Below, one piece after another: positions 10,310 through 28,192 of a stretch of 64,000 bases of DNA; within the stretch, counting starts at the first letter, position 1, and every line of letters begins with the position of its first letter. Below the pieces are notes generated by a model. That model made no database searches, had not been told where the DNA came from, and saw only the letters and a program-made list of their open reading frames with translations. The stretch spans positions 1-64,000 of the forward strand of contig NZ_MEDS01000010.1 in assembly GCF_001724135.1 (NCBI RefSeq). Direction: 5' to 3'. A program made the position numbers and the translations under genes. The DNA is from Comamonas sp. SCN 65-56 (GTDB lineage Bacteria; Pseudomonadota; Gammaproteobacteria; Burkholderiales; Burkholderiaceae_C).

Positions 10310-11167
10310 ATGTACTGGCAGACCACGCGCTTTGCAATCGACCTGTCGCGCCCGCGCGTGATGGGCATCGTCAACGTCACGCCGGATTCCTTTTCCGACG
10401 GCGGCGACCACGCCTCGGCCGGGGCCGCCATCGCACACTGCGAGCGGCTGGTGAAGGAAGGCGCCGACATTCTGGATATCGGTGCCGAATCCACCCGCCC
10501 CGGCAGCCCGCCGTTGCCGCTGCACGACGAGCTGGAGCGGCTGCTGCCCGTGGTACGGACGGCGCTGACGCTGGGAGTGCCCGTATCGGTGGATACCTAC
10601 AAACCCCGGGTGATGCAACAGGTGCTGGATCTGGGTGCGGACATCATCAACGACATCTGGGCGCTGCGTCAGCCGGGAGCGGCAGAACTGGTTGCGCGCC
10701 ATCGCAATTGCGGCATCTGCCTGATGCATATGCACCGCGAGCCACAGACCATGCAAAGTGCACCCATGCAGGGCAGTCCGATCCCGCAAGTACTATCGTT
10801 TTTGGAGCTTGCAGCGCGCTCCATGATTGCGCTGGGGGTCGAAAAAGCTCGTATCGTGATCGACCCCGGCATAGGCTTTGGCAAGACCGTGGAGCAGAAT
10901 TTTGCGCTCCTGGCGCGCCAGCGGGACCTGCTTGCATTGGGCTATCCTGTGCTGGCAGGCTGGTCGCACAAATCGTCGCTTGGCGCAGTGACAGGGTTGC
11001 CGGTGCGCGAGCGTGTGGCGGTCAGTGCCGTGGCTGCGGTCCTCGCGGTCCAGGGCGGCGCTGGCATCGTGCGCGTGCACGATGTCGCCGAGACGGTGGC
11101 GGCACTCGCCGTCTGGCGGGCGGTGCAGGCAGGGCGGGGTCAGCCAACGCAGGAGACAGACCAGTGA
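10310..11167 (+). CDS. folP: dihydropteroate synthase
   Basis: FolP condenses p-aminobenzoate with 6-hydroxymethyl-7,8-dihydropterin pyrophosphate in folate synthesis; it is the sulfonamide target. The 285-residue TIM barrel shows [87 protein letters not shown], and [16 protein letters not shown]. The ATG at 10310 is the first plausible start after the palindrome. It overlaps glmM by 4 nt (GTGA). The [20 protein letters not shown] stretch is encoded by bases that resemble a dispersed repeat. Confidence 0.95.
10791..10848 (+). repeat. in-gene copy of dispersed ~50 bp repeat (weak)
   Basis: Within folP the bases tttttggagcttgcagcgc followed by gcgctgggggtcgaaaaag resemble the two arms of the dispersed repeat at 39987. 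The encoded residues align with FolP without a gap, so if this is a copy it overwrote coding sequence rather than lengthening it. Confidence 0.35.
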
Positions 11168-12495
11168 CACGCAAATTCTTTGGCACCGACGGCATTCGCG
11201 GCACCGTCGGGCACGAGCCCATCACGCCGGATTTCGTGCTGCGCTTGGGCCACGCGGTTGGCAGCGTGCTGCGTCGCAGTGAAGAACGCCCACGGGTGTT
11301 GATCGGCAAGGACACCCGGATTTCGGGCTATATGCTGGAGTCGGCACTGGAATCCGGCCTGAATTCCGCCGGCGCGGATGTGGTGCTGCTCGGACCCTTG
11401 CCGACCCCTGGCGTTGCCTATCTGACACGTGCGCTGCGCGCCAGCCTTGGCGTGGTGATCTCCGCTTCGCACAACCCGTTTGCCGACAACGGCATCAAGT
11501 TTTTCAGTGCCCAGGGCTCCAAGCTGCCGGATGCCTGGGAGCTGGATGTCGAGGCGGCGCTGCAGCAGCCTCCGCACTGGGCGAATGCGGCCGGCCTGGG
11601 CAAGGCCGCGCGGCTGGACGACGCCGCCGGGCGCTACATCGAGTTTTGCAAGAGCACCTTTGCACATGACCTCACGCTCAAGGGCTTGAAGATCGTGGTT
11701 GATGCGGCGCATGGGGCCGCCTACCACATCGCACCCAAGGTGTTCCATGAGCTCGGCGCCGATGTCATCTCCATCGGCTGCGCGCCCGACGGGCTGAACA
11801 TCAACGACCAGGTGGGTGCCACCCACCCGGATGCGCTGGTGCGATCCGTGCGCGCCAACCATGCCGACTTCGGCATTGCGCTCGATGGCGATGCCGATCG
11901 CCTGCAGATGGTCGACGCCCAGGGGCGGCTGTATACCGGCGACGAACTGCTCTACGTCATCGCCGCAGATCGGCTGAACCGCGGCCAGACGGTCTCTGGC
12001 GTGGTCGGCACCTTGATGACCAACATGGCGGTCGAGCGCGCGCTGGTGCAACGCGGCGTTCAATTGGTCCGCGCCAAGGTGGGCGATCGCTATGTGCTGG
12101 AAGAACTGCTGGCGCATGGCTGGCTGCTCGGCGGCGAAGGGTCTGGCCATCTGCTGGTGCTGGACAAGCACAGCACCGGCGATGGCCTGGTGAGCGCGCT
12201 GCAGATCCTGCAGACCTGCGTACGCCAGCATGCGCAGCTGCCGGATTTGCTCCAGGGCCTGGCGCTCTTTCCGCAGGTGCTGGTCAACGTGCGGCTCAAT
12301 GCCGGCCAGGACTGGCGCGCCAATGCGCAGCTCCAAAAGGCAATCCACGATGCAGAGCAGACGCTGGGCGAGCGGGGCCGGGTGCTGGTGCGCGCCAGCG
12401 GTACCGAGCCTTTGCTGCGCATCATGGTCGAAGCGCAGGATGCACAGCAGGCCAACGCGTGTGCGCAGCATCTGGCCCAGGTGGCGCGCGCCTGA
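11164..12495 (+). CDS. glmM: phosphoglucosamine mutase
   Basis: GlmM converts glucosamine-6-phosphate to glucosamine-1-phosphate on the way to UDP-GlcNAc for peptidoglycan and LPS. The GTG at 11164 overlaps the folP stop (GTGA) and gives the family start [15 protein letters not shown]. The active-site serine loop [17 protein letters not shown] has the phosphorylated Ser at residue 102. The metal-binding loop [15 protein letters not shown], sugar-binding [19 protein letters not shown] and the phosphate loop [15 protein letters not shown] follow in order. It has 443 residues. ftsH-folP-glmM is a conserved proteobacterial order. Confidence 0.96.
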
Positions 12496-12543: not shown

Positions 12544-14151
12544 ATGGCGGAAGGCGAAGACCTGCGATCACTGCTCAGGCGTCTTGAGCAGCTCAACGAG
12601 GTGGGGGCAGCGCTCTCGGGCGAACGCGATCTCGGGCGGCTGCTCGAGTTGATTCTGGATGCGGCGCAAACGCTCACGGGTGCCGATGGCGGAACGCTCT
12701 ACCGCATGATGGACGACCGGCAGGCCTTGCGCTTCGTGCTGATGCGCACCCAGTCGCTGGGCATTCGACGTGGCGGCAAGGGGGAAACGCCGCTGGACTT
12801 TCCGCCATTGCCGCTGTATCTGGCCGACGGCGCGCCCAATGACCATATGGTGGCGGTGCATGCCGTGCTGCACGATACGACGGTTGTCGTTGACGATGCC
12901 TACGACAGTACGAATTTTGATTTCTCCGGCACGCGCGCCTTTGACCAGCGCACAGGCTACCGCTCACGTTCCTTCCTCACGGTTCCGCTGAAGAACCACG
13001 AGGGCGAGATCATTGGTGTGCTGCAGCTCATCAACGCCATCGATCCGGTCAGTAAATCCGTGCGGGCTTTCTCGCCTGCAGAGCAGCGCATCGCCCAATC
13101 GCTGTCTTCACAGGCCGCGATTGCGCTCACCAACCGCTTGCTCATTGATCAACTCGAGCGCTTGTTCGAATCGTTCGTCAATTTGATCAACCAGGCGATT
13201 GACGAAAAATCGCCCTACACGGGCGGCCATTGCCAGCGCGTGCCGCAGCTCACCATGATGCTGGCCGAAGCAGCCCACGCGACCCGCGAGGGCCCGCTCG
13301 CGGCTTTCGTGATGACCGAACGCGACCGCTACGAACTCAAGATGGCCGGTCTGTTGCACGATTGCGGCAAGATCACGACACCGGTGCATGTCGTGGACAA
13401 GGCGACCAAGCTGCAGACCATCTACGACCGCATCGCAACCATAGATACCCGCTTTGAAGTGCTCAAGCGCGATGCCGAGATCGATGCCTTGCGGCGCCAG
13501 CTCGCGCTGCGCCCGGTGGTGGATGAAAAGGCGGAAGCCGCGATTGCCGAGGATCTGCGCGCGCAAGGCGCAGAGCTGGAGGCAGAACGTGAATTTTTTC
13601 GCGCGTGCAATCGCGGCAGCGAAGCGATGCAGCTGCACGACGCGGAACGCGTGCGCGCCATTGCAGTGCGCCGCCAGTGGCGCAACCCTGAAGGCGTGCT
13701 GACCGCATTGCTGACGGCCGACGAGATTGAAAACCTGACGATTCGCAGCGGCACCCTGACCCAGGCCGAGCGCGATGTCATCAACTACCACATCGTGAGC
13801 ACGATACGCATGCTGGAGAGCCTGCCCTGGCCGCGTCACTTGCGCAACGTACCGGAATACGCTGGCGGTCACCACGAGCGCATGGACGGCAAGGGCTACC
13901 CACGCGGCCTCACGCGTGAGCAGATGTCGTGGCAGGCTCGCATGCTGGGCATTGCCGACATCTTCGAGGCTCTGACAGCGGTGGATCGACCCTACAAGCA
14001 CGGCATGAAACTCTCGCAGGCGCTGACCATCATGCGCAAGATGTGTGACGGCGGGCATATCGATCCCGACCTGTTCGAGGTGTTTGTGCAAAGTGAGGTG
14101 TACCTGGACTACGCGCGGCAGTTTCTGGATGCGTCACAGATCGACGGCTAG
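12544..14151 (+). CDS. GAF / HD-GYP domain phosphodiesterase
   Basis: Likely a cytosolic sensor that hydrolyses cyclic di-GMP. The ATG at 12544 follows a strong GAGGAGGT ribosome-binding site; an ATG at 12517 is less likely. Residues about 15-185 form a GAF domain (LILDAAQTLTGADGGTLYRM, YRSRSFLTVPLKNHEGEIIGVLQLIN). The HD-GYP domain follows: YTGGHCQRVPQL, LLHDCGKITTPVHVVDKATKL, AGGHHERMDGKGYPRGL, and LGIADIFEALTAVDRPYK, so the metal-binding HD and the GYP triad are kept. Between KATKL and the next HD-GYP helix lies an extra, mostly helical and charged stretch of about 130 residues. It is a single gene facing an HNH endonuclease gene; the signal sensed by GAF is unknown. Confidence 0.88.
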   Translation: MAEGEDLRSLLRRLEQLNEVGAALSGERDLGRLLELILDAAQTLTGADGGTLYRMMDDRQALRFVLMRTQSLGIRRGGKGETPLDFPPLPLYLADGAPNDHMVAVHAVLHDTTVVVDDAYDSTNFDFSGTRAFDQRTGYRSRSFLTVPLKNHEGEIIGVLQLINAIDPVSKSVRAFSPAEQRIAQSLSSQAAIALTNRLLIDQLERLFESFVNLINQAIDEKSPYTGGHCQRVPQLTMMLAEAAHATREGPLAAFVMTERDRYELKMAGLLHDCGKITTPVHVVDKATKLQTIYDRIATIDTRFEVLKRDAEIDALRRQLALRPVVDEKAEAAIAEDLRAQGAELEAEREFFRACNRGSEAMQLHDAERVRAIAVRRQWRNPEGVLTALLTADEIENLTIRSGTLTQAERDVINYHIVSTIRMLESLPWPRHLRNVPEYAGGHHERMDGKGYPRGLTREQMSWQARMLGIADIFEALTAVDRPYKHGMKLSQALTIMRKMCDGGHIDPDLFEVFVQSEVYLDYARQFLDASQIDG

Positions 14152-24889: not shown

Positions 24890-25987
24890 ATGACCGACAC
24901 CGTCTTCAACTACGCCAAAACCGACTACGACAAGCCGCTGCTCTTCCTTGGCGACAAGCAAGGCCTGTTTGACACCATCAACCGCCACTACCCGCGCATC
25001 TGGGAGCTGTACAAGACGCAGAAATCGCTGGACTGGGACGAGAACGAATTCGACTACTCCAGCTGCAACGCCGACTTCAAGAAAGCCAGCCGCTCCACCT
25101 ACGACATGATGATAAAGACGCTGGCCTGGCAGTGGGAGGCCGACAGCGTCGCCAGCCGCGCCATCGCCCCGGTGCTCGCGCCCTTCATCACCAGTAGCGA
25201 GCTCTGGGCTGCGTGGCAGCGCGTTTCGGACAACGAAGTCATCCACGCCGCCACCTATTCCGAGATCGTGCGCAATTCGTTTGACGACCCGTCCGTGATC
25301 ATCGACGAGATCCTCAGCGTGCAGGAGGCGCATGCGCGCCTGGCCCGCGTCGTGAAGGCCTTTGAAGACGGCTATACCGCCTCGCACCAATACGCGCTAG
25401 GGGCATTGGGCAACGACCAGGACACCTACAACGCCATCTTCATGATGCTCGTCGCGCTCTTCTGCATGGAACGCATCCAGTTCATGGCGAGTTTCGCCGT
25501 GACCTTTGCCATCTGCGACACCGGCATGTTCCAGCCGATAGGCAAATCCATCCAGAAGATCGCGCAGGACGAGCTGGAAATCCACGCCGAGCTCGACCGC
25601 GCCGTGCTGCAGAACGAGCTGACGACAGCCCGCGGCCAGACCGCCTTCGCGCAGAAGCGCGAAGACATCGAGCAGCTCATCGCCGAAGTGGTGGACAGTG
25701 AACTCGCCTGGATTGAATACCTCTTCTCCGAAGGCCGCGAACTCGTCGGCATGAACGCCGAGCGCCTGTCGGCCTGGACGCGCTACTGCGCCAAGGACGT
25801 CTACCAGACGCTGGGCCTGGAGACGACCAAATACGAATTCCCCAAGGCCAACCCGCTCAAGTTCATGGAAAAGTGGCTCAACATCAGCAAGACGCAGGCC
25901 TCACCGCAGGAGCAGGACATTGCGGCGTACAAGGTGGGGGTGATGCGGAGGAATGATGAGGGGGTGGTGTTTGAGGTGGATTTTTGA
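24890..25987 (+). CDS. nrdB: class Ia ribonucleotide reductase, small subunit
   Basis: NrdB houses the diiron-tyrosyl radical that powers NrdA. The 365-residue product begins at ATG 24890 with AAAGGA just upstream. Iron-ligand segments are visible: WQWEADSVASRAI (early Glu/Asp region), VIHAATYSEIVRNSF with the Glu-x-x-His pattern and adjacent Tyr, and QDELEIHAELDRAVL. The radical-transfer tail ends DEGVVFEVDF, of the family type with terminal acidic residues and Phe. It is cotranscribed with nrdA. A remnant of a toxin gene begins 4 bp after its stop. Confidence 0.96.
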   Translation: MTDTVFNYAKTDYDKPLLFLGDKQGLFDTINRHYPRIWELYKTQKSLDWDENEFDYSSCNADFKKASRSTYDMMIKTLAWQWEADSVASRAIAPVLAPFITSSELWAAWQRVSDNEVIHAATYSEIVRNSFDDPSVIIDEILSVQEAHARLARVVKAFEDGYTASHQYALGALGNDQDTYNAIFMMLVALFCMERIQFMASFAVTFAICDTGMFQPIGKSIQKIAQDELEIHAELDRAVLQNELTTARGQTAFAQKREDIEQLIAEVVDSELAWIEYLFSEGRELVGMNAERLSAWTRYCAKDVYQTLGLETTKYEFPKANPLKFMEKWLNISKTQASPQEQDIAAYKVGVMRRNDEGVVFEVDF

Positions 25988-25990
25988 GGG

Positions 25991-26056
25991 GGCTTTGTCT
26001 GGCGCTTCGTCCATGCCACGCAGGTCGCAATTGCGGATTGCCACGGAAAGGAGCTC
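25991..26056 (+). pseudogene. remnant of higB toxin (C-terminal end only)
   Basis: The bases read in frame as GFVWRFVHATQVAIADCHGK, which resembles the C-terminal strand pair of HigB/RelE toxins (typically ICFRW...A..VEIVDYH). There is no start codon and nothing upstream, since nrdB ends 3 bp before. The frame runs into higA without a stop. This fits a deletion that removed most of higB and joined the remainder to the nrdB 3' end. The identification rests on a short stretch. Confidence 0.55.
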
Positions 26057-26059
26057 TTT

Positions 26060-26362
26060 ATGGCGCGAGACATTCCATGGCCGCACCCCGGCGAAACCCT
26101 GTTGCATGAGTTTATGGAGCCTATGGGCCTGACCCAGTACCGGCTCGCCAAGGAGATCGGCGTGTCGCAGCGCTGCATCGGCGAAATCGTGGCTGGAGCG
26201 CGGTCGATCACGGTGGATACCGGGCTGCGTCTATCCAAGTTCTTCGGTACGTCGGATGGGTTCTGGACGAGGTTGCAGTTTGATCACGATACTGCGGTGG
26301 TGAAAGAGCAGATGGCTGAAGTATTGGGGCGGATCAGGCGATTTGAACAGGAGCGTTCCTGA
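26060..26362 (+). CDS. higA: HigA-type antitoxin (orphan)
   Basis: A 100-residue XRE-family protein of the HigA (VapI-like) group. It opens with IPWPHPGETLLHEFMEPMGL, typical of HigA, then a helix-turn-helix (LTQYRLAKEIGVSQRCIGEIVAG) and the GLRLSKFFGTSDGFWTRLQ segment. HigA neutralises the HigB mRNA interferase and represses its own promoter. Here the partner toxin is reduced to a short remnant, so the antitoxin is either a leftover, a free-standing regulator, or an anti-addiction gene. An AAAGGAG site precedes the ATG by 6 nt. Confidence 0.88.
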   Translation: MARDIPWPHPGETLLHEFMEPMGLTQYRLAKEIGVSQRCIGEIVAGARSITVDTGLRLSKFFGTSDGFWTRLQFDHDTAVVKEQMAEVLGRIRRFEQERS

Positions 26363-26513
26363 GTTGCGCGGTGGTTGGTTGGCGAGTGAAATTTTAAGTA
26401 AATGCGCGAATGCTATTTTGCAAGATATGGCCCCAAAGCCGTGGTGGCCCAGAAATTTCAGAGAAACCTCGGTTGCAAATTAGTTGGGACGGTAATTTTG
26501 GATCAAAAGGTGA

Positions 26514-27548
26514 ATGATGGGCAGGTACGCACTCTGGAATAATAAAGGCGGAGTAGGGAAGAGTTTCCTCACCTTTTCGCTTGCGTGTGAGTATGCAATA
26601 ACTCATCCGGATGAAGAGGTGTTGGTTCTTGATCTTTGTCCACAAGCGAATACCACAGAAATGTTTCTTGGAGGCAAAGATGGTGCGATAGCTCAGCTTC
26701 AAACGATGTATGGAGAGAAACCGAGACGCTCTATCGGAGGGTATTTCGAGTCACGTCTGACGTCGCCGTTTATACCAATGCCTAGTGTACAGGATTTCCT
26801 TTATAAACCCAGTTCCACCAATCGAAATATTCCAGAAAATCTTGTTTTGGTTGCAGGCGACAATTTGTTGGAACTCCTCGCTGAGGCAATGCGTGGCGTC
26901 TCACAACTTGCATTGCCAAATGACGCGTGGGCGAAAGTTATGCGTTGGTTGAATGATTTAATACGCACATTCACTGAGGCGTCACAATATAGCGACGTAA
27001 CAACGTTTATTGATTGCAATCCAAGCTTCTCTATGTACACGCAAGTTGCGCTCTGTGCAGCTGAATATGTCGTTGTTCCGTTCACTGCTGATGATAGTTC
27101 TAGAAGAGGTATTGAAAACGTCTTGGCGTTGTTATATGGAATTGCTTCGAGTGAGTTACAAGGTTACGCTAGGCTGAGTTTTTCTTCGAGAGCATCGCAG
27201 GACGGCGTGGACCTCCCCCGCCTGCATACGTTCGTGAGTAATCGTGTGACGATGTATAAAGGCAAGCCAAGTTCAGCCTTTCAGGCAAAGAGCGCACCCA
27301 TCAAGTTGCTTGTGGATAATGCATTGTCCCAAGGAAAAAAATATTTTGCTAACTACAAAATATCTACTGATTTATTTGTTGAGATGCCAGATTATCATTC
27401 GGTGGCTGTGGTGGCTTCTTCCGAAGGTTGTCCTTTGTCTCGGCTTAAGTCTGGACATCATGGTGTAGATGGAGATATCGTACAAGTTAACCAGAACGCT
27501 ATCGAAAAATATACTAAGGCAGTTGCCAAACTCGTCCAGAGATTGTAA
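26514..27548 (+). CDS. ParA-type ATPase in AT-rich two-gene module
   Basis: A 344-residue P-loop ATPase of the ParA/MinD/Soj class. The deviant Walker A is NNKGGVGKS at residues 9-17, a second acidic motif LDLCPQANTTEMFLGG is at 39-54, and the Walker B-like FIDCNPSFSMYTQVAL is at 166-180, followed by VVVPFTADDSSRRGIENVLAL. The middle (residues 60-130) and C-terminal third match nothing recognised and are longer than in minimal ParA proteins. No parB-like gene or centromere-like repeat cluster follows; instead the next ATG directly abuts the TAA. The gene is much poorer in GC (40-47 per cent in lines counted by hand) than its neighbours, which indicates recent transfer. Translation may begin at either Met of the MMGRYA start. 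Function unknown; a role in defence or in locating the partner protein is inference. Confidence 0.85.
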   Translation: MMGRYALWNNKGGVGKSFLTFSLACEYAITHPDEEVLVLDLCPQANTTEMFLGGKDGAIAQLQTMYGEKPRRSIGGYFESRLTSPFIPMPSVQDFLYKPSSTNRNIPENLVLVAGDNLLELLAEAMRGVSQLALPNDAWAKVMRWLNDLIRTFTEASQYSDVTTFIDCNPSFSMYTQVALCAAEYVVVPFTADDSSRRGIENVLALLYGIASSELQGYARLSFSSRASQDGVDLPRLHTFVSNRVTMYKGKPSSAFQAKSAPIKLLVDNALSQGKKYFANYKISTDLFVEMPDYHSVAVVASSEGCPLSRLKSGHHGVDGDIVQVNQNAIEKYTKAVAKLVQRL

Positions 27549-28154
27549 ATGTCTTCTTCGGTAGCTTTGAGTAAATTTTCCGCTTCGGTGGCAGGTGCAC
27601 GGGTACTCGCCGGATTCCACGGAAACGTAAGTAATGCTAGCCCAAACCAGAGATTTACTGATACGTGTGTGCTAAGCGCTGCGGTTGCTCATGGCGTAGG
27701 CTGTTGGGAAGGCTATCTTGAAGCGGTCTTACGAGAATTTGTCTCAAAAACGCGGATACAAGCTCATAGGCGAGCTTGGACTTTGATTGTCCAATTTGAA
27801 GCTCTCGTTGATAAGGCGGCCTCAGAATTAAATACCCCAAGTTGGGATAAGTGTCGTGATTTGATTTTGAATATCACTGGCATGGATGTATACCCGTCAT
27901 GGATTTGGAATGCGAAATTTTCAAATCAAACCGATACGAAGGCATTTTTTGATGGAGTCCTCAGAGTTCGGCACTCTTTTGCTCATGGTTTTTCTATTCC
28001 GAACGATATTCCTGGGTTAATTTTGGCTGGCAATTTAGATAAAGCGTATGTTGCCAATGCGATTTCTTGCGTGGAATTCTTCGCACAAAAAACAGATTTA
28101 TTACTGGAATATGAATTAACCCATCGTCATGGGTGCTCGAATGGTTGGAACTAA
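27549..28154 (+). CDS. HEPN-motif protein, candidate RNase partner of the ParA-type ATPase
   Basis: A 201-residue mostly helical protein with no signal peptide or membrane segment. The RxxxxH motif of HEPN ribonucleases is at residues 141-146 (RHSFAHG), and an early helix, GCWEGYLEAVLREFVSK (51-67), fits the WExYL-type first helix of the RiboL-PSP-HEPN (MAE_28990/MAE_18760-like) group. The start codon directly follows the TAA of the ATPase gene, so the two are translated from one message. Low GC is shared with the ATPase gene and ends abruptly after the stop. In known HEPN toxins the Arg and His form the RNA-cutting site; that this protein cuts RNA, and that the ATPase restrains or positions it, is inferred from the motif and the pairing. 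Confidence 0.7.
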   Translation: MSSSVALSKFSASVAGARVLAGFHGNVSNASPNQRFTDTCVLSAAVAHGVGCWEGYLEAVLREFVSKTRIQAHRRAWTLIVQFEALVDKAASELNTPSWDKCRDLILNITGMDVYPSWIWNAKFSNQTDTKAFFDGVLRVRHSFAHGFSIPNDIPGLILAGNLDKAYVANAISCVEFFAQKTDLLLEYELTHRHGCSNGWN

Positions 28155-28158
28155 TTTT

Positions 28159-28192
28159 TCGCGGTCGCAGGGTCATCGCGGTCGCAGGGTCA
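28159..28192 (+). repeat. perfect 17-bp tandem duplication at island edge
   Basis: The unit tcgcggtcgcagggtca occurs twice head to tail directly after the AT-rich module, where GC content jumps back to the chromosomal level. Confidence 0.9.

Follow-up and report, generated by a model that had tools for sequence, protein, structure and literature searches.

In the genome of Comamonas sp. SCN 65-56, a gene for a ParA-type ATPase is directly followed by a gene for a HEPN-domain protein. The present analysis concerns this ParA-HEPN pair, located on contig NZ_MEDS01000010.1 within a stretch of 64,000 nucleotides that is referred to here as the window. The coordinates of the two open reading frames (ORFs) assigned in the initial annotation are exact, as is the junction, at which the TAA stop codon of the ParA gene is followed by the ATG of the HEPN gene with zero gap (Table 1). 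The description of the pair as AT-rich in higher-GC surroundings holds as well, the content of guanine and cytosine (GC) being 44.9% in parA and 43.7% in the HEPN gene against 64.3% in the whole window, with GC at third codon positions of 0.42 and 0.37, respectively, compared with 0.87 in nrdA and 0.56 in nrdB. Promoter- and terminator-like sites at the window pair occur at chance level, and no conserved site emerged from the aligned upstream regions of three pairs, which display just scattered identical columns before the start codon.

Table 1. Coordinates of the ParA-HEPN pair and its motifs in the window.
Feature	Position	Strand	Evidence
ParA-family ATPase gene, 344 amino acids, first of the pair	26514..27548	+	PF13614 E=8.2e-17; 75% identical orthologues in L028 and L029, both followed by the same HEPN gene; clade support 100/99
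Walker A' motif KGGVGKS of ParA, residues 11-17	26544..26564	+	K11 to K16 invariant in 14 intact pairs; K11, G12, G13, G15, and K16 also in 46/46 ParAs outside the clade
HEPN-domain gene (PF18735-type), 201 amino acids, second of the pair, start abutting the ParA stop	27549..28154	+	
RxxxxH motif, codons of R141-H146 in RHSFAHG	27969..27986	+	Invariant in 14/14 intact pairs; end of predicted helix 127-146

The product of the first gene matches PF13614 with 62.1 bits against a cut-off of 27, as well as the phage family PHROG 164 ('ParA-like partition protein') with an E value of 1.5e-34, while no PADLOC profile matches it at E <= 1. The deviant Walker A motif highlighted in the initial annotation is present (NNKGGVGKS), but it is ordinary for ParA and represents no oddity within that family. 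The stretch from K11 to K16 together with D40 and D167 is invariant in the 14 intact pairs described below, and K11, K16, D40, and D167 also occur in 46/46 ParAs outside the clade formed by the paired ones; among these residues are the deviant Walker A signature lysine and the Walker A' and Walker B aspartates of the ParA family. A cysteine before PQ is found in 46/46 members of this long-form ParA family outside the pair clade and in 12/12 paired rows. The structure model of the window ParA was poor (pLDDT 68.1) and was left unused.

By profile, the second protein is assigned to the HEPN family PF18735 (RiboL-PSP HEPN). It scores 28.3 bits, just below the curated cut-off of 28.4, which is passed by all seven other pair HEPNs scanned singly (29.6-47.1 bits), and 10/10 members of the HEPN profile A3 match PF18735 at E <= 1. 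Its identification as a HEPN protein is supported at the profile level and moderately so by structure, where the second-best VIA match of the window protein is the HEPN toxin 7ae6. Among sequences of the Protein Data Bank (PDB), the HEPN profile found nothing better than E 1.4. The RHSFAHG motif (RxxxxH), already recognized in the initial annotation, occupies R141-G147, with R141-H146 closing a helix of the structure model, and is retained without exception among the intact pairs, as are W53, Y56, N95-P97, R103, and D113. The WEGYL stretch, which contains W53 and Y56 and had been described as a helix, indeed falls inside a predicted helix of residues 32-69. The protein is predicted to be an RNA-cutting enzyme.

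Homologues of the window ParA were collected by scanning GTDB species genomes, with the best 80 of 409 confirmed loci kept; a first ParA tree of 58 rows took 44 of these 80 loci, leaving out L072 (truncated) and L073-L107 (distant or partial), and a second tree of 81 rows added 16 of L073-L107 as well as the phage locus L027. In the 58-row tree, the window ParA and eleven others drawn from these best 80 of 409 loci, with identities of 44-75%, form one clade (support 100/99) that spans beta-, alpha-, and gammaproteobacteria, Cyanobacteria, and Poribacteria. An intact HEPN gene lies -1 to +10 bp downstream in 10 of the 12 clade ParAs; in the remaining two, the HEPN gene is interrupted (L033) or absent (L036). 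Beside the ParAs outside the clade, which come from genomes, six plasmid loci, and two phages and show about 30-43% identity, no HEPN profile match occurs in the fetched DNA (0/46), which covers at least 1,568 downstream bases in 43 of them and 282, 456, and 591 bases in three. Both counts refer to loci found by ParA or whole-genome ParA searches and exclude four pairs found through the HEPN protein; G272 (= L002/L023/L028) was first found by HEPN and then again by ParA.

HEPN-led searches contributed these four further intact pairs, one from a cyanobacterium and three from IMG/VR contigs. The cyanobacterial search matched 2 of 194 genomes, the query genome included, and gave one new pair; in IMG/VR, a ten-row HEPN profile found five matching loci, three of them pairs, and single-sequence and two-row HEPN scans of the viral contigs found nothing. 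With the HEPN-found pairs added, 15 paired ParAs (L033 counted) and that of L036 constitute one clade with a support of 100/99; the start codons of L148, L151, and L154 were set by hand and are possibly 1-3 codons off. Five of 300 genomes of the order matched the HEPN protein, comprising the genome itself, one true pair (G272, L028; 75% identity to the window in ParA and 67% in HEPN), and three others; at L003/L024, all that is left is a C-terminal HEPN remnant, with no ParA, in one genome a distant HEPN is not accompanied by this ParA within 3.4 kb, and the match at L005 receives no support from the HEPN profile. Among 249 genomes of the phylum, profile A3 matched the window and, in five genomes, distant HEPNs with a different type of motif, around which the 3.2-3.6 kb fetched contain no such ParA, and the two-row profile A2 matched the window alone among 369 genomes of the class. 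Weak HEPN matches with an RG-type RxxxxH (L004, L156-L162) are likewise without such a ParA in the 3.2-3.6 kb fetched. None of 72,556 plasmids or 50,697 phage records matches the window HEPN; weak plasmid matches exist for the HEPNs of L030 (4) and L037 (3), the former having none in the phage records. Since the clade ParAs keep the HEPN gene while genome scans yield few matches, the pair is real but sparse, and its conservation as neighbours in other genomes, in 10/12 clade ParAs and in the four HEPN-found pairs, makes it a genuine two-gene module.

The two genes have also been inherited together. The ParA and HEPN identity matrices of the 14 intact pairs agree (Mantel r = 0.940, with 0/5000 permutations as high), and both genes show purifying selection in the pairs compared, with dN/dS values of 0.13 and 0.16 for the two genes in the close Poribacteria pair L035-L037; pN/pS amounts to 0.19-0.29 in three comparisons among the window, L028, and L029, in which synonymous sites are saturated. 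An association by chance, or by mere co-transfer without joint function, could be argued from the occurrence of ParA relatives without HEPN and of HEPN relatives without this ParA, but adjacency has been held across phyla down to about 44% ParA identity with matching histories of the two partners. This explanation was therefore rejected on the kept adjacency and the agreement of ParA and HEPN identities, and is considered very improbable.

Both partners are nonetheless found alone. Long-form ParAs without HEPN, and without ParB where annotated, are located on plasmids, phages, and chromosomes (L006-L011, L018-L022, L025, L026, and L039-L071). The orphan ParAs of phages phi297 and ST11-VIM1phi8.2 and of Xanthomonas, Pantoea, Salmonella, Cryobacterium, Acinetobacter, and E. 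coli plasmids resemble the window ParA over the full length (35-41% identity) and have the NNKGG, CPQ, and NPSF motifs in common with it; unlike the window pair, the eight loci fetched have no adjoining HEPN gene, and in both phages the orphan parA lies downstream of a CI-type repressor gene. Conversely, lone HEPN genes with RHSVAHG and no such ParA are situated among phage genes on two IMG/VR contigs (L152, 4893-5636, with a tail protein gene; L153, 1585-2268), so that the HEPN protein also occurs in the absence of this ParA.

The genomic setting of the pair suggests that it is mobile. Seven other genomes of the same genus have a matching NrdB, and in 6/6 examined the DNA similarity ends at or within 15 bases of the nrdB end; none of the eight window genes after nrdB that were tested is present in roughly 7 kb downstream of nrdB in those genomes. 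A ParA of this family (E <= 1e-40) is absent from 8/8 other genomes of the genus, two of which are less than 90% complete. Positions 25987-26060 of the window represent a variable site downstream of nrdB, as the following content differs between the two same-genus genomes with ORFs listed. Compared with the flanks, the GC content of the pair is clearly reduced in the window, L028, L029, and L031 and slightly reduced in L034 and L038, and it is nearly the same in L030, L032, L035, and L037. By eye, the neighbours of the pairs L029-L032, L034, L035, L037, and L038 are for the most part ordinary chromosomal genes and change from one locus to the next, so that the module travels as its own cassette.

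In the window, the neighbours include genes for a HigA antitoxin, MazF/MazE, and CcdA/CcdB. The initial annotation had counted four other toxin-antitoxin genes nearby and taken them as the setting expected of a defence site; such genes are present, but they number five (HigA, MazE, MazF, CcdA, and CcdB), and no toxin-antitoxin surroundings were noticed by eye at the other pairs, which are accompanied mostly by ordinary chromosomal or phage genes. The HigA-type gene (26060-26362) comes right after nrdB with no room upstream for HigB and is an orphan antitoxin gene. The assignment to a conflict module gains from the HEPN-found pairs, three of four of which come from putative viral contigs and have integrase or lysis genes beside them or in the vicinity. 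In L028 and L154, the pair is immediately followed by an integrase gene; in L151, integrase and CI-type repressor genes flank the pair at about 3 kb to either side (integrase 2.6 kb); in L150, an endolysin gene is less than 1 kb away; and an N-acetylmuramidase gene lies near the pair in the Delftia locus L029. Temperate phages often carry their accessory conflict genes in such places. Near the Poribacteria pair L037, two RRXRR proteins resembling IscB, of which one has HNH, as well as a short direct-repeat-like array were additionally observed (293-1327, 10421-12316, and 12617-13026).

The presence of a ParA protein raises the question of whether the pair serves partition. The four matches of the genome to ParB_N (PF02195), the only kind of centromere-binding protein searched, sit on contigs C6, C9, C47, and C51, with none on the window contig C10, in agreement with the initial annotation; no ParB is annotated beside related ParAs in six plasmid regions, whose gene tables are incomplete, and three phage regions, and a ParB or partition gene set is not the context that these neighbourhoods present. 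Upstream of the window pair (26300-26620), there are no direct repeats and three weak inverted repeats. The absence of centromere repeats claimed initially agrees with the lack of direct repeats on the upstream side. A perfect 17-bp tandem repeat is found just after the HEPN gene (28159-28192), the second copy of which, with its right flank (25 bases), has no other occurrence in the genome when up to 2 mismatches are allowed. An ordinary partition operon was rejected, given that the contig has no ParB_N gene and the upstream region no direct repeats; a cis site following the pair may nonetheless exist.

A less conventional form of this explanation deserves consideration, in which the ParA would act on replicon DNA in partition, incompatibility, or positioning, with the HEPN protein as a non-catalytic adaptor in place of ParB. 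The ParA relatives on plasmids (230 records match the window ParA) and temperate phages, together with the PHROG assignment as a partition protein, are in line with this proposal, and a precedent is provided by ParI, an orphan ParA described in passages of PMC9178275 as destabilizing IncP-7 plasmids. A further point in its favour, which at the same time weighs against a conflict module, is the occurrence of direct repeats in the 300 bases after the pair in 5/11 pair loci (the window, L029, L032, L035, and L037) versus 4/45 loci outside the clade. These repeats measure 9-22 bases and have no sequence common to different loci, for which reason they are not read as one centromere; direct repeats beyond chance (p <= 0.05) on the upstream side are rare, being limited to L021 and L051, which have no HEPN, and the pair L035. 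Several pairs are embedded in chromosomes among ordinary genes, which speaks against a role on replicon DNA, as does the situation on the window contig described above, and that RHSFAHG is so strictly conserved is easier to reconcile with catalysis than with an adaptor role. A partition-like function is regarded as quite unlikely.

The combination of a ParA and a HEPN protein has been proposed before. In passages of Anantharaman et al. (PMC3710099), a ParA/Soj gene with a HEPN gene of the MAE_18760 family was predicted in 2013 as a less common toxin-antitoxin dyad, with the ATPase as antitoxin, while the Ribo L-PSP HEPN family was listed as 'operon with ParB'. The initial description of the module as undescribed is therefore less well founded, although the HEPN family named there is another one. 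The 2013 dyad and the window pair are alike in having a ParA-type ATPase gene adjoining a HEPN RxxxxH gene, but the window HEPN, unlike that of the dyad (MAE_18760/MAE_28990 family, PF18737), has no PF18737 match at E <= 1, and among ten pair HEPNs only three match weakly, at best with 0.031. A PF18737 search of 194 cyanobacterial genomes matched 30 genomes at 30 loci, five of which have parA before the HEPN gene. This second, cyanobacterial ParA-HEPN dyad (L141, L142, L143, L146, and L147) begins with a KGGVSKT ParA, followed by a RRNKIAH HEPN, with a stop inside the HEPN match of L141, and is probably the dyad predicted in 2013. Its HEPN from L146, the sole one scanned, fits PF18735 (59.4 bits) better than PF18737 (22.6), and four of the dyad HEPNs, used as a profile, align with the window HEPN family over most of the length (hhalign probability 52%, E 1.4e-4).

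The ParA partners of the two dyads, by contrast, are distinct. The window ParA has KGGVGKS and DLCPQAN, whereas the cyanobacterial dyad ParAs have KGGVSKT and DSDPQ/DTDPQ. In the tree of 81 ParAs, the pair clade and 47 other long-form ParAs form one group (59/59 rows, 100/99) separate from the five dyad ParAs, at a point where the program warns of long branches meeting. As the dyad HEPNs resemble the window family while their ParAs sit elsewhere in the tree, it appears that ParA and PF18735-type HEPN proteins came together on more than one occasion or that one of the partners was exchanged. Membership in the PF18737 dyad was rejected because the window HEPN has no PF18737 match and its ParA is of another lineage; since the cyanobacterial dyad, probably the 2013 one, uses a different ParA lineage, the window pair is a separate variant of the predicted ParA-HEPN kind. 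No experimental test of a ParA-HEPN pair was found in the literature searched, which was represented in part by passages and listings.

Several characterized systems offer further points of comparison. Passages of PMC10952713 assign a PF18735 HEPN to the anti-phage systems PD-T4-2, PD-T4-5, PD-T7-3, and ApeA. PD-T4-2 thus has the HEPN family in common with the window pair but carries a DUF262 domain, where the window pair has a ParA ATPase gene (PF13614) instead; the PADLOC profile PD-T4-2_B is matched by 1/10 pair HEPNs, at 0.0025, and membership in PD-T4-2 was rejected on the nature of the partner. MNT-HEPN (HepT-MntA), also a two-gene module with a HEPN protein, to which the toxin 7ae6 among the structure matches relates it, differs in that its partner is a nucleotidyltransferase rather than a protein matching ParA-type ATPase profiles, and its HEPN protein has 147 residues compared with 201 in the window. 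DefensePredictor (PMC13092281) includes HEPN systems, and the word ParA is absent from its main text.

An orphan ParA-like gene is also encountered in the Salmonella prophage Gifsy-1. As stated in passages of PMC9879122, the genes STM14_3218-3220, which start with an orphan ParA-like gene, are required to activate the RNA repair operon, an activation thought to answer cut tRNA; complementation of the region from a plasmid succeeded in part or not at all, and STM14_3211, the HEPN gene annotated by the authors, was dispensable. At 840 bp, STM14_3218 is shorter than the window parA. The HEPN profile has no sequence match to HepS (PDB 9oik, 9oij) at E <= 10. Judging from size (663 bp versus a 218-residue chain), HepS, the HEPN-like protein of PDB 9oik and an anticodon nuclease, may correspond to STM14_3220; if so, Gifsy-1 would also be an orphan-ParA and HEPN neighbourhood.

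Considered together, a cassette present in very different bacteria and in prophage-like DNA suggests a phage-defence or toxin-antitoxin module. The interpretation that we favour, at somewhat better than even confidence, is a horizontally moving phage/host conflict module of two genes in which the ParA ATPase controls the HEPN RNase. It builds on the gene order, the tight spacing, the conservation of ATPase and RxxxxH motifs, co-inheritance, purifying selection, the spread over phyla, the prophage-like contigs, and the lack of ParB_N and upstream direct repeats. The upstream ATPase would bind and hydrolyse ATP and, by interacting with the downstream HEPN protein, would keep the RNase in check or poised in the resting state. 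When a phage infects, a prophage is induced, or a competing replicon enters the cell, its nucleotide- or DNA-bound state would change, releasing the RNase, which would then cut cellular RNA (tRNA or mRNA) and thereby stop growth or phage multiplication, with toxicity and defence as the presumed outcome.

The same components might also act as a plain addiction system without phage sensing, with the HEPN protein as toxin and the ParA as antitoxin through a nucleotide-dependent change or a modification. This arrangement corresponds to the two protein kinds of the 2013 MAE_18760 dyad prediction, as given in the passages of PMC3710099, and would suit the sporadic distribution and the adjoining MazEF and CcdAB genes of the window. 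It would, however, make the larger first gene the antitoxin, yet 46/46 of its kin outside the clade have no adjoining toxin, and no ParA of this kind adjoins the HEPN relatives in L152 and L153; pure addiction is judged rather unlikely. ATP-driven control of a HEPN RNase appears to be the best reading, and in view of the prophage settings and the PF18735 relatives, defence is more probable than pure addiction.

Plasmids, prophages, and chromosomes carry orphan parA genes that lack an adjacent ParB and are largely unexplained, and a ParA clade closely tied to a predicted RNase provides a compact case in which a partition ATPase may control, or sense for, a growth-stopping enzyme. With close orthologues of the window pair at hand, the ParA-HEPN idea of 2013 becomes directly testable in a laboratory host. 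More tentatively, and with considerable doubt, the pair may be a cross-phylum, prophage-borne immune module whose partition-type ATPase is a sensor that switches on the HEPN RNase, in which case its nucleotide- and DNA-bound state would signal that a competing phage or plasmid has arrived or is replicating, possibly via the partition proteins of that element itself. If this is true, partition-type ATPases would be a recurrent class of immune sensors, paired with HEPN RNases at least twice, in this clade and in the cyanobacterial KGGVSKT dyad.

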